Assembly (NCBI GenBank): GCA_031278755.1
Contig: JAITJV010000181.1
Location: 1-11,443, forward strand
DNA from: Treponema sp.
GTDB lineage: Bacteria; Spirochaetota; Spirochaetia; Treponematales; Breznakiellaceae
DNA length: 11,443 nucleotides
Direction: 5' to 3'
This document shows, piece after piece, positions 2,444-7,429 of this stretch; within the stretch, counting starts at the first letter, position 1, and every line of letters starts with the position of its first letter. The notes below the pieces were generated by a model. It was not told the DNA's origin and did no database searches. It saw nothing but the letters and a program-made list of their open reading frames with translations. The position numbers and the translations under genes are program-made.

Positions 2444-3568
2444 ATGGGAGCCACCCGTGCCCTTATACATCTTGAAAGATTCCGCCGTAATGTGCGGGCT
2501 GTTGTACACCTGACGGGCCGCCGGGTGTGCGCGCCCGTCAAAGCCGACGCCTATGGCCACGGCGCTCCGGAGATTGCCCGCGCCGCGCTTGAAGCCGGCG
2601 CTTCCTGCCTTGCGGCGGCCCTTGTTTCCGAGGGGGCGAAACTGCGGGAAAACGGCCTGGACGCCCCCATACTCCTTCTTTCCCAGCCCCTTCCCTGTGA
2701 GATACCCGAAATTCTTCATTATAGGCTCTGTCCCCTGGTTTCCGACGGGGATTTTGCCTTTGAGCTTGCCAGGGCCGCGGAAGCGGCGGGCGTGCGGCTT
2801 CCCGTTCATCTTAAAATAGACACAGGCCTGGGCCGGCTGGGCTGTTCTCCGGAAGAAGCGCCTTCGCTGGCAGCCCGTATTGAGGGCCTTTCTCCGCTTG
2901 AGCTGGCGGGAACCGCCACTCACCTTGCCGTCTCGGATTCGGCGGACAGGGAAGACCGGGCCTATACGGAAGAACAGCTTGTCCGTTTCGGAAAAGCCCT
3001 TGACGCCATGCGATCCTCGGGTCTGGATCCCGGCATTGTGCACGCCGCCAATTCGGGCGGCGTGATGCTTCATCCGGAATCCTGGTTTGACATGGTGAGG
3101 CCGGGAATTCTCCTTTACGGGTATGACATGACGGGCGCCGCGGGAAAAACATCCGGCGCGGGCGTCCTTTGCCCCGAGCCTGTGATGGAGCTGAGGACGC
3201 GGATTGTGCTGATACGGAATGTAAAAAAAGGTGAAAGCGTTTCGTACGGGAGGATATGGCGCGCCCCCAGGGATACGGTTGTCGCCGTTATTCCCGCAGG
3301 TTACGCCGACGGCTTTCCCCGGCTGATAAGCGGCAAGAATTGGGAAGTCGGCATACGGGGCCGCCGCTATCCCCTTATCGGCCGCGTCTGTATGGATCAG
3401 TGTATGGTGGATTTGGGGCCTGATTCGAACATATCCCGCTGGGAAGAAGTTTCCGTATTCGGCGGGAACGCCCCCGACGCCGGAGAGCTTGCCGCGGAAA
3501 TTGGGACCATTCCCTACGAAATCACCTGTAATATATCAAGCCGCGTTCCGCGCGTGTATATTGAATAG
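2444..3568 (+). CDS. alr: Alanine racemase, PLP-dependent, 374 aa
   Basis: Interconverts L- and D-alanine in the cytoplasm, supplying D-Ala for peptidoglycan. It has the full length of the family (about 370 residues). The PLP-binding Lys is K33 in APVKADAYGHG, at the start of the alpha/beta barrel. HLKIDTGLGRLG and ANSGGVML are barrel signatures, and FDMVRPGILLYG precedes the C-terminal beta domain. The second catalytic base is Y268 in SVSYGRIW, followed by VIPAGYADGFPR and GRVCMDQCMVDLG, which complete the substrate site; the end is EITCNISSRVPRVY. All key residues are present, so the enzyme should be active. The start MGATRALIHLERFRRNV aligns with the usual family start, and no upstream in-frame start exists before a TAA at 2402. 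There is no Shine-Dalgarno; a promoter ends just upstream. The fhs remnant follows 21 bases after the stop on the same strand, so the two were probably co-transcribed. Confidence 0.96.
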   Translation: MGATRALIHLERFRRNVRAVVHLTGRRVCAPVKADAYGHGAPEIARAALEAGASCLAAALVSEGAKLRENGLDAPILLLSQPLPCEIPEILHYRLCPLVSDGDFAFELARAAEAAGVRLPVHLKIDTGLGRLGCSPEEAPSLAARIEGLSPLELAGTATHLAVSDSADREDRAYTEEQLVRFGKALDAMRSSGLDPGIVHAANSGGVMLHPESWFDMVRPGILLYGYDMTGAAGKTSGAGVLCPEPVMELRTRIVLIRNVKKGESVSYGRIWRAPRDTVVAVIPAGYADGFPRLISGKNWEVGIRGRRYPLIGRVCMDQCMVDLGPDSNISRWEEVSVFGGNAPDAGELAAEIGTIPYEITCNISSRVPRVYIE

Positions 3569-3589: not shown

Positions 3590-4811
3590 ATGAAAAGCGA
3601 CATTGAAATTGCCAGGGAAACTCCGCTGCAAAAGATATGCGGCGTCGTTTCTTCCATGGGAATACCGGAGGAATACCTTGAAGAATACGGTGCATACAAG
3701 GGGAAAATAGATTATCGCATCCTGAAAGACGCCGCGCTGCCGTCTCCGCGGGCGCATGGGGCGCATTATCCCCGCCGCGGACAGGCGGGGGAATTTTCTG
3801 AGCGCCGAAGATTTTGGCGCGGCGGGGGCCATGACGGTTCTCCTTAAAGACGCGCTTAAGCCAAACCTTCTGCAGATGCTTGAAGGGCAGGGGGCCTTTG
3901 TGCATGCGGGGCCTTTTGCCAATATCGCCCACGGGAATTCTTCGGTCATGGCGGATCTTGTCGCCGTCCGTTATGCGGATTATGTTGTTACGGAAAGCGG
4001 CTTCGGTTCCGACATGGGAATGGAAAAATTTTTCGACATCAAGTGCCGTGTTTCAGGACTTGCCCCTTCGGCCGCAGTGCTTGTGGCGGCCGTCCGCGCG
4101 CTTAAATCCCACGGAGGCGGCCCCGCCGTCGTTCCCGAAAAGCCCTTTCCCGCGGCCTACCGGGAAGAAAACCTTGAACTCCTCAGAGCGGGCCTTTCCA
4201 ACCTGAGGGCGCATCTGGGAATCGTGCGCCGTTTCGGAATTCCCGCCGTCGTCGCGATCAACGCGTTTCCTTCCGATACGGAAGCCGAGTGGGAACTGGT
4301 GAAAAACGAAGCGGTCAAGGCAGGCGCGGCAGACGCGGTTGTATGCCGGCACTGGGCCTGCGGCGGCGAAGGCGCGGCGGTTCCGGCCGGGGCGGTGGAA
4401 GCGGCCGCGGGCGGCGCAAACGGCGCGGATTCCGCTTCGCCGCAATTTCTTTACTCTGACGAAACGCCGCTCGCGGAAAAGATCGAAACGGCCGCCAGAG
4501 AGATATACGGCGCGGACGGCGTAGATTACGGCGAAGGGGTACGGAAAGAACTGGACAGGTTTGAAGATATGGGCTATGGAAAACTCCCCGTCTGCATCGC
4601 AAAAACGCAGTATTCACTTTTCCATGATCCGGCCCTCAAGGGCGCCCCCTCAAACTGGCGGCTTCCGGTGAGGGAAGCGCGGCTTTTTGCCGGAGCGGGG
4701 TTTGTCGCTCCGCTCTGCGGGGAGATCAGCGCCATGCCGGGCCTGCCGTCGCGGCCTGCCTTTATGGATATAGACATTAACGAAGAAGGAATCATACGGG
4801 GCCTGTTTTAG
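3590..4811 (+). pseudogene. fhs: Broken formate-tetrahydrofolate ligase (internal deletion plus frameshift)
   Basis: Formate-tetrahydrofolate ligase makes 10-formyl-THF from formate, THF and ATP, in one-carbon metabolism and the methyl branch of acetogenesis. A good AGGAG at 3580-3584 precedes the ATG at 3590. The first 50 or so codons (MKSDIEIARETPL, then YGAYKGKIDYRILKD) are a normal family N-terminus. At about 3728-3750 homology jumps, in another reading frame, to what is normally residue about 225: MGRIIPAADRRGNFLSAEDFG (split here at MGRIIPAADR/RGNFLSAEDFG). From there the protein is intact: VLLKDALKPNL, GPFANIAHGNSSV, ESGFGSDMGMEKFFDIKCR, CIAKTQYSLFHDP and MPGLPSRPAF, ending EEGIIRGLF at 4811. 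About 170 residues are missing, including the ATP P-loop (PTPAGEGKTTT in the family) and the FTGDFHA region. The first frame ends at 3847. The family is about 556-560 residues. It is a pseudogene unless the gap is an assembly error. The missing length is estimated from family knowledge, not an alignment. Confidence 0.88.
3756..4811 (+). CDS. C-terminal fragment of formate-tetrahydrofolate ligase, 351 aa open frame
   Basis: This is the 3' part of the broken fhs, listed separately because it is a long open frame that a gene caller would report. It starts at an ATG that is just an internal Met of the ancestral protein (MGRIIPAADR), with no Shine-Dalgarno before it. A later ATG at 3831 (MTVLLKDALKP) has a purine-rich run ahead of it. 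The fragment keeps the middle and C-terminal domains but has no P-loop, so it cannot be an ordinary ligase. A Gly/Ala-rich insertion (VEAAAGGANGADSAS) lies before QFLYSDETPLAEKIE. Conserved blocks to the very C-terminus contain no stop codon, so the lesion is either young, artefactual, or the remnant is still selected. Translation is uncertain. Confidence 0.5.
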   Translation: MGRIIPAADRRGNFLSAEDFGAAGAMTVLLKDALKPNLLQMLEGQGAFVHAGPFANIAHGNSSVMADLVAVRYADYVVTESGFGSDMGMEKFFDIKCRVSGLAPSAAVLVAAVRALKSHGGGPAVVPEKPFPAAYREENLELLRAGLSNLRAHLGIVRRFGIPAVVAINAFPSDTEAEWELVKNEAVKAGAADAVVCRHWACGGEGAAVPAGAVEAAAGGANGADSASPQFLYSDETPLAEKIETAAREIYGADGVDYGEGVRKELDRFEDMGYGKLPVCIAKTQYSLFHDPALKGAPSNWRLPVREARLFAGAGFVAPLCGEISAMPGLPSRPAFMDIDINEEGIIRGLF

Positions 4812-4899: not shown

Positions 4900-4946
4900 C
4901 CCTTCGCGGCGAATCAATTACAGTAAAGAAAGCTGGAGGTTTGTTC

Positions 4947-5576
4947 ATGGATCATTTTGTAAAAGATCAGATGGAAGGCGCGCGCCTGGAAAACGAAGAA
5001 GACGAGGAAGAGCAGGAATCCAAACAGTCAGGGGCCGATCCGCTTGTTCAGAAGATGCTCAAGACGCGGACCATTCTGCTCTGCGGCGAAATAAAAAAAG
5101 ATTTGGCCGAAAAGGCCATACGGCAGCTTCTGCTTCTTGAAAACATGGGCGATGATCCCATAAAGATTTTTATCGATTCCCCCGGCGGAGACGCCGACGC
5201 GGGTTATGCAATTTTCGACATGATACGTTTTGTAAAGCCTCCGGTTTTTATCATAGGCATGGGCCTCGTGGCAAGCGCCGCGGCCATCATACAGCTTGCA
5301 AGCCCGAAGGAAAGGCGGATGGGGCTTCCCAACAGCCACTACCTTATCCATCAGCCCCTTTCGGGAATACGCGGCGTGGCGACCGACATAGAGATACACG
5401 CCCGCGAGCTTGACAAGCTGCGGGAGAAGATCAACAGGCTCATCGCCGAAGAAACCGGCGCCGCCTACGAGCAGGTTGAAAAAGATACGGACAGGGACTA
5501 CTGGATGAACGCGGAAGAAGCCGCGGCCTACGGCCTTATCTCAAAGATCATAAGCCGGAGAACTGAGCTTCGATAA
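4947..5576 (+). CDS. clpP: ClpP-family serine protease with divergent acidic N-terminus, 209 aa
   Basis: Peptidase subunit of the Clp family: a barrel of Ser-His-Asp sites that normally degrades proteins fed by an AAA+ unfoldase in the cytoplasm. The triad is complete: S110 in GLVASAAAI, H135 in YLIHQP, and D184 in TDRDYWMNAEEA. IDSPGGDADAGYAIFD is the oxyanion-strand motif, and ATDIEIHARELDKLR is the handle-helix region. Unlike standard ClpP, the N-terminal axial-loop segment is replaced by a strongly acidic stretch (residues about 16-25, NEEDEEEQES), and GQAASMG is GLVASAA. The partner may therefore be non-standard, or this is a second ClpP. GGAGG at 4935-4939 sits 7 bases before the ATG at 4947 and decides the start over the TTG at 4941. 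No clpX or other unfoldase is adjacent. It lies downstream of the broken fhs and is convergent with the pyrophosphatase gene. The 50-base repeat starts at its stop codon. Confidence 0.92.
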   Translation: MDHFVKDQMEGARLENEEDEEEQESKQSGADPLVQKMLKTRTILLCGEIKKDLAEKAIRQLLLLENMGDDPIKIFIDSPGGDADAGYAIFDMIRFVKPPVFIIGMGLVASAAAIIQLASPKERRMGLPNSHYLIHQPLSGIRGVATDIEIHARELDKLREKINRLIAEETGAAYEQVEKDTDRDYWMNAEEAAAYGLISKIISRRTELR

Positions 5577-5761: not shown

Positions 5762-7429
5762 TCATCCCATGTTCATGACAAGCTCGGACAAAAGCGGCAT
5801 GAGCTGTTTCTTTCTGGAAACTACGCCTTTAAGCAGATAGACGCCGTCCTCGTTCCTGGGGATGAGGACCTGTCCCATGAATGATTTTTTCCCCGATATA
5901 AAGAGAAAGGAATCAAGCGCCAGCACATCGGTAACAAGCAGGGCGGAAAAGAGGTGGTTTTTTGACGCGCAGGTTTTTTCAAGAGCGGAGATGATTTCGT
6001 TTTTCCGGTCAAGGAGGCTCTGCGGATTATCCGTTTCAACCTGGCTTACCGAAAAGGTTACGCCCCGTTCCGTATATTCTTTCATGTCCATGGCGGTAAG
6101 TTCTCCGGCGGGCCTTTCATTGACGCGGTTCGCCGCGGCCTGTATGTCGCGGGCAAGGGCGGCGATCTCAAGTCCGGCCGCGGATGCAAGAAAATCCGCG
6201 GCTTCCCTGTCCGCCGCGGTCGCCGTAGCGGATTTCAGCCCCAGCGTGTCGGCAAGAATTCCGCAGAGAAGAATGGAGGCGATTTCTTTTTTAAGGGGCG
6301 CGTTCTGCTCCCTGTAAAGGCCCGCGATGATCGTGCAGGTGGCTCCTACCACCCTGTTGATGAAGGTGATGGGATAGCGCGTCGAAAACGCCCCGATACG
6401 GTGGTGGTCAATCACTTCACGGATATGGTAATTTTCCGCGCCCTCAACCGCCTGGGAAAATTCGTTGTGATCCACAAGGATAAGTTCTACATTGGGCTCC
6501 TTGATAAGATCCCCTTCAAACAAAATCCCCGTAACCCTGCCTTCATCATCCCCGACAGGGAGGCACCGCGACGGAGCGTGGGAAATCGGTCCGCGTATCC
6601 TGTGTATGTGATCGCTTGTGTTTACAAGGGGAACAGAAGCATCCCCTATGGCCCCGACGGGAACCGAATAGATGATGAGCATCGCCGTTGAAGACGTGTC
6701 GTAGGGGCTTACGATCACGGGAACCCTGTTCTTTTCGGCAAGCGCCTTAATGTCGTCGTCAACGTCATGGCCGTTGGAAAGGATCAGCGCCCTCACCTTC
6801 CGCTCTATGCAGTGCCTCTGTATTTCCTTCCTGTCGCCCGCTATCACAAGGGAATCCTCCGGGCTTCCGTCTTCCAGGTGGGCCATGAAATAATCGTCCG
6901 GTTCAGCCGCCACCACTATAGGCGACAGCTTTACTTCCGCACCGTTAAAGACGGCGACGGGCTGGGCGCGGAGGGTGCGGATCAAAAGATCCATCGAAAC
7001 GGGAAAGGCCGATTTTTTGTGCGGATTGATGTTGGCGGTGATGTAGTTTGCAAAGCCGCGGTTGTGAAACATGCCCCGGTATTTTCCGTCCGCGTCCGTA
7101 ATGGGAAGCACCCTCGGATTTTCTTCGGGAATTGTCCGCTGCATGCGTTCCAGCGCTTCCCACAGTGAAGCTTCCGCGGGTATCGTAACGACGGGGCCTG
7201 AAATGTAGTGGAGCGCCTTGGGAACAAGATCGGGAAGGTATTCAGGCACGCTTACGCCGAAGCGTTCAAAAATATATTCGGTCTGCGGACTCAGGTTCCC
7301 CGCCCTGGCCGCCCTGCATGAACGCATCCCCTGCGCCTGTTTAAGGGCGGCGTAGGCCGCGGCGGACGCCACCGAGTCCGTATCGGGATTTCTGTGCCCT
7401 ATGACATAAACTGTTTTTTCTTCATCCAT
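5762..7429 (-). CDS. ppaC: Family II inorganic pyrophosphatase with CBS-DRTGG-CBS insert, 555 aa
   Basis: Hydrolyses pyrophosphate to phosphate in the cytoplasm, pulling biosynthetic reactions forward. The DHH domain is split. GHRNPDTDSVASA (H12, D16, D18) holds metal ligands; then comes a regulatory insert with CBS1 (about 75-132), a DRTGG domain (about 150-255) and CBS2 (about 256-310). The DHH part then resumes with LVDHNEF (D320-E323), IDHHRIG (D341-H343) and GILADTLG (D394). The DHHA2 domain follows, ending in VVSRKKQLMP (538-542), the substrate-binding signature. All metal and phosphate residues are present. At 555 residues it has the long CBS-PPase length against about 310 for simple family II enzymes. 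In this subfamily AMP/ADP inhibit, and enzymes with DRTGG can be activated by diadenosine polyphosphates (family knowledge). The start is the ATG at 7429, with a CAGGTGA site a few bases upstream. It is convergent with clpP and divergent from pth, and has no operon partner on its strand. Confidence 0.96.
   Translation of the reverse strand: MDEEKTVYVIGHRNPDTDSVASAAAYAALKQAQGMRSCRAARAGNLSPQTEYIFERFGVSVPEYLPDLVPKALHYISGPVVTIPAEASLWEALERMQRTIPEENPRVLPITDADGKYRGMFHNRGFANYITANINPHKKSAFPVSMDLLIRTLRAQPVAVFNGAEVKLSPIVVAAEPDDYFMAHLEDGSPEDSLVIAGDRKEIQRHCIERKVRALILSNGHDVDDDIKALAEKNRVPVIVSPYDTSSTAMLIIYSVPVGAIGDASVPLVNTSDHIHRIRGPISHAPSRCLPVGDDEGRVTGILFEGDLIKEPNVELILVDHNEFSQAVEGAENYHIREVIDHHRIGAFSTRYPITFINRVVGATCTIIAGLYREQNAPLKKEIASILLCGILADTLGLKSATATAADREAADFLASAAGLEIAALARDIQAAANRVNERPAGELTAMDMKEYTERGVTFSVSQVETDNPQSLLDRKNEIISALEKTCASKNHLFSALLVTDVLALDSFLFISGKKSFMGQVLIPRNEDGVYLLKGVVSRKKQLMPLLSELVMNMG

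Follow-up and report, generated by a model that had tools for sequence, protein, structure and literature searches.

The question raised by this locus is whether its gene for formate--tetrahydrofolate ligase (fhs; FTHFS, PF01268) was broken by an internal deletion in the living organism, or only in the assembly of its DNA. The window, that is, the whole stretch of 11,443 nucleotides that was analysed, constitutes contig 201 in a 322-contig, 1.73-Mb assembly that is 62% complete. Judged from its relatives, the spirochete that carries it would be close to Treponema MAGs of the Breznakiellaceae, and the termite gut, which is the habitat of these relatives, is the presumed source of this organism too. 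The features on which the argument turns are these.

2444 to 3568, plus strand: alr, alanine racemase gene, intact upstream neighbour and control gene (Pfam)
3590 to 4811, plus strand: fhs remnant, between alr and the clpP-type gene
3590 to 3847, plus strand: 5' remnant of fhs, an 85-aa open reading frame (ORF list; Pfam FTHFS positions 1-47, 31.1 bits)
3743 to 3755, plus strand: deletion junction, ambiguous in position, with the frame shifted (ungapped two-sided comparison with L112)
3744 to 4811, plus strand: 3' remnant of fhs, open to the native stop (Pfam FTHFS positions 215-556, 445.5 bits)
4941 to 5576, plus strand: clpP-type protease gene, intact downstream neighbour and control gene (Pfam)

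A functional FTHFS is read in a single frame of about 556-590 aa; here the Pfam profile is matched in two frames, at 3593-3733 (profile 1-47 of 556) and at 3744-4808 (profile 215-556), with no stop codon inside either match. The 5' remnant comprises some 55 native codons, beyond which translation runs out of frame until a stop at 3845-3847, while the 3' remnant is represented in the protein database by a 326-aa entry (P0001) that begins at an internal start and carries PF01268. A split gene with its missing part elsewhere was considered and dropped, since no FTHFS match beyond these two turned up when the genome was searched. A pattern scan gave no promoter-like patterns, and six terminator-like patterns against 2.6 expected. 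Scanning the fhs remnant for repeats yielded none that bears on its interpretation.

The identity of the gene is clear from its relatives. With the window's own entry excluded, the best matches listed are P0002 (583 aa, 92% identity), P0003 (a named Treponema MAG, 80%) and P0004 (81%); the first of these is a full-length FTHFS (PF01268; NCBIfam NF010030-NF010032), and its 92% identity extends over the 351 C-terminal residues that the window retains. The closest named DNA, JAIRXH010000006.1 of Treponema sp. isolate Gsp477_bin147 (L112, corresponding to congener G002), has an intact syntenic fhs in the order orfB-alr-fhs-clpP-pth-mazG, and the tree separates P0003 from the G002 gene by hardly any distance. 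The alr-fhs-clpP neighbourhood is thus common to the window and to intact relatives such as L112, L019, L036 and L037.

Beyond these three genes, an ORF of 526 aa that matches no Pfam family lies at 797-2377 on the minus strand, divergent from alr; its homologs (30-64%) occupy the same position in L112, L035-L037, L040 and L048-L050, so that it constitutes a conserved unknown beside alr. On the other side, a convergent gene at 5762-7429 on the minus strand, encoding a DHH/DHHA2 protein with CBS and DRTGG domains, stands between clpP and pth in the window. The spacing of clpP and pth is about 41 bp or less in congeners G001, G002 and G003, with no DHH/DHHA2 gene between them, and in G018 (L117) and G019 (L128) clpP adjoins a DHH/DHHA2-type gene.

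Against the syntenic intact gene of L112, an ungapped two-sided comparison gives a net loss of 530 bp. The breakpoint scores highest at 3742-3743 and nearly equally well up to about 3755, where the window resembles both flanks. In P0002 numbering, agreement on the left extends to about residue 55 and is taken up again on the right at 233, leaving residues ~56-232 (~177) missing, together with the frame. Both PLGEGKTT (position 67 of P0002), which we take to be the ATP-binding P-loop of FTHFS, and GIKGGAAGGGY (position 104), presumably its glycine-rich segment, fall within this interval, and a functional FTHFS would carry both. Its product is consequently very likely inactive, as far as can be judged from the sequence. 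The internal deletion, frameshift, loss of the ATP site and inactivity proposed in the preliminary description are therefore borne out by the two-piece Pfam match and the comparison with L112. So is its expectation that the FTGDFHA-type priming region had been lost, since HLTGDIHAV of P0002 lies in the deleted part. Its figures were slightly low, at about 170 residues and 510 bases with resumption near residue 225. Solved FTHFS structures exist for eight distinct sequences.

An intact gene could nevertheless appear broken if an assembler had fused its flanks, passing over sequence that is conserved among relatives in the same community. The missing part is indeed very conserved and may be fragile in assembly: in G008 a second fhs breaks off at a contig end, at profile position 100, and among the 120 FTHFS matches listed six (P0025, P0030, P0043, P0096, P0099 and P0108) are only 459-460 aa long, starting inside the conserved region. 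We considered whether these six represent a recurrent N-terminally truncated family and dropped the idea, as all begin at the conserved motif MED[FI]NLH; since the comparable G008 copy starts at a contig end, they probably reflect contigs that break off within this conserved and fragile region. At the junction in the window, however, the similarity between the flanks in the L112 comparison spans only about a dozen bases. So short a similarity would be too little for k-mer fusion by the usual assemblers. Furthermore, no FTHFS fragment occurs elsewhere in the 1.73-Mb assembly, itself 62% complete.

Across an alignment of 108 full-length fhs homologs, 97 positions are invariant in all, and a functional FTHFS would be expected to keep them; the window gene deviates at six (T>M, T>A, G>E, L>P, S>F and T>A), where the next worst homolog deviates at three and the median is zero. 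The margin over the next worst is smaller with looser cut-offs, at 8 versus 4 for positions of 98% conservation and 11 versus 8 for 95%. Conversely, the neighbouring genes are unchanged at their invariant sites (0/94 in clpP across 119 homologs; 0/70 in alr across 118), with a single M>L in alr appearing at the 98% and 95% cut-offs. The relaxation of constraint is thus specific to fhs, as would be expected of a pseudogene. The preliminary description had held that everything after the junction is intact, which stands for the frame and fails for the residues.

Polarising the changes with P0003 and P0004, and leaving out four sites where the window and P0002 both differ, assigns 17 to the window branch and 6 to that of P0002 (two-sided sign test, 0.035). 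No clear excess on the window side is seen in the neighbours, for which the window-to-sister counts are 4:7 or 10:11 in alr and 4:4, 4:3 or 4:2 in clpP. For calibration, lineages were polarised against a near sister in 52 fhs (the window included), 63 alr and 34 clpP. The window, with 6 of its 17 changes at invariant sites, is alone among the 52 fhs lineages in having at least three such changes, and no alr (0/63) or clpP (0/34) lineage has as many. We take fhs, on this reading of its residues, to have been dead during much of its time as a separate lineage. The deletion had been called recent, a description that holds only in part given the ~17 polarised amino-acid changes already on the window branch.

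Judged by site entropy, the changes appear randomly placed in the window (P 0.47) and constrained in its sister P0002 (P 0.0004). Calibration showed that placement is likewise indistinguishable from random in 18 of 51 other fhs, 24 of 63 alr and 20 of 34 clpP lineages; since many intact lineages also look random, the test is not diagnostic. It fits drift and does not discriminate, and we have dropped it as strong proof. The 3' remnant has acquired neither a second frameshift nor a stop, which is unremarkable because 17-21 amino-acid changes would be expected to bring with them only 0.5-0.8 stops.

Changes at invariant residues confined to fhs would not be expected of a fused living gene or of an error-rich contig. 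Errors or strain mixing limited to fhs could also be a source of the odd residues. Because the remnant is changed at invariant residues and alr and clpP are not, we take the deletion to be real, and an assembly collapse, which had earlier been given equal standing, becomes an improbable explanation. We place at roughly 85% the reading, drawn from sequence comparison, that the window's fhs is a genuine pseudogene, formed by internal deletion and decayed since, and that loss of the native gene has been tolerated. In having a single disruption, open frames, changes at conserved residues and intact neighbours, it resembles the bacterial pseudogenes formed by internal deletion, and we found nothing to set it apart from them.

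The sequence of events may have been as follows. A 530-bp internal deletion in the native fhs, between alr and clpP, would have taken both the ATP-binding core and the reading frame. Slippage between short similar GC-rich stretches was perhaps the route, the protein of the sister P0002 suggesting that both ancestral flanks carried such a stretch of about a dozen bases. Afterwards the remnant would have gained changes at residues where the family tolerates none.

An open frame of 326-351 aa does survive, and could in principle yield a truncated product that has taken on a new role. Such a product would have lost the P-loop and the glycine-rich segment, and we rejected it on the changes at invariant residues; we regard it as the least plausible explanation by far.

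How could loss of the native gene be tolerated? The genus is represented by four genomes, all incomplete: the window's own, G001, G002 and G003; a wider set of 34 family relatives (G001-G034) was surveyed. The native fhs is intact in G002. In G001, the interval between alr and clpP holds two BPD_transp_1 genes, one SBP_bac_1 gene and other ORFs, and no native fhs. In G003, near-identical transporter genes come after the end of alr and run to the edge of the contig, and clpP opens another contig, so that the gap between is unseen; a search of its genome found no native fhs. Both G001 (G001:C86) and G003 (G003:C192) possess a divergent fhs, here termed type B, beside a second folD and metF, and G003 has one more copy of the type-B clade. 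Within the G001 interval (L177:5033-6009), neighbouring ORFs match DUF6575 and, barely above cut-off, SecB.

Type B belongs to the same enzyme family and occurs in the same genus as the window's fhs, yet forms a separate clade (support 0.998), the window remnant having an identity of 0.47 to the member from G006. It is possible that the native fhs of the window is dead while an intact type-B gene beside folD and metF resides in the unassembled part of the genome, which would refine the pseudogene reading. The pattern in G001 and G003, where no native copy is seen and type B stands beside folD and metF, favours such an arrangement. Nevertheless, a type-B fhs, a second folD and a metF above cut-off (best match 18.9 bits against 24) are all wanting in the window's genome at 62% completeness, and G002, the nearest congener by its fhs gene, has the native type only. 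We give this refinement somewhat less than even odds. An FTHFS profile search of the whole 1.73-Mb assembly found no second fhs of any kind, which at this completeness is not proof of absence.

Among the family relatives, 10 of 34 have no fhs match, four of these being at least 90% complete (G021, G027, G032 and G034). In G005, G008, G014, G021 and G023, no more than about 130 bp separates alr from clpP, with no fhs between; G005 has a native-type fhs elsewhere, G008 and G014 have the divergent type, and G021 and G023 have none. Hence, fhs is dispensable in nearby relatives. The passages available from PMC13067680 and PMC9137090 fit a dispensable native fhs. No fhs pseudogene was found for this group in the parts of the literature that were accessible, which is weak evidence of its absence from print.

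A close alr (P0243, 92%) and a close clpP (P0122, 92%) both name a 5,219-bp contig as their longest, an equality of size that may be coincidence. None of the 120 fhs matches listed names this contig, which may mean that a sister strain, too, is without an intact fhs.

The preliminary description foresaw consequences for acetogenesis. This expectation is weak: acsB (PF03598), present in 9 of the 39 genomes searched (the window's own included), was found in none of the four incomplete genomes of the genus, and fhs itself is absent from several relatives. Because no acsB was found in these four, the loss probably has no bearing on acetogenesis. The window's genome retains glyA (C231), folD (C160) and two formyltransferase-like Formyl_trans_N genes (C58, C322). 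The route through GlyA and FolD suffices to supply 10-formyl-THF from serine and, with both genes in the assembly, loss of fhs would be tolerable if they function as predicted. It is also possible that a second fhs outside the assembled part covered the loss, as in two congeners. Formate production may continue, given a single partial PFL-like match in the genome.

Taken together, our findings are fairly well accounted for as ordinary gene loss, a small example of gene decay. Their practical bearing lies in detection. The 3' remnant scores 445.5 bits against a Pfam FTHFS cut-off of 27, so that tables of acetogenesis-marker presence and absence in metagenome-assembled genomes can count a dead fhs. 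Conversely, the full-length NCBIfam models reject the remnant (394-398 bits against cut-offs of 652, 938 and 800), the full-length P0002 itself clearing just one of the three. Changes at invariant residues, combined with controls from neighbouring genes, can also help to separate a real deletion from an assembly error without reads.

It is tempting to speculate, though only tentatively, that the native fhs has been lost repeatedly within one apparently non-acetogenic genus of spirochetes, being replaced in two species by the divergent type B next to folD and metF, remaining intact in one, and standing in mid-decay without replacement here. If so, surveys in which the remnant registers as fhs would overcount this marker, and the window's species would no longer bring formate into the folate pool at all.
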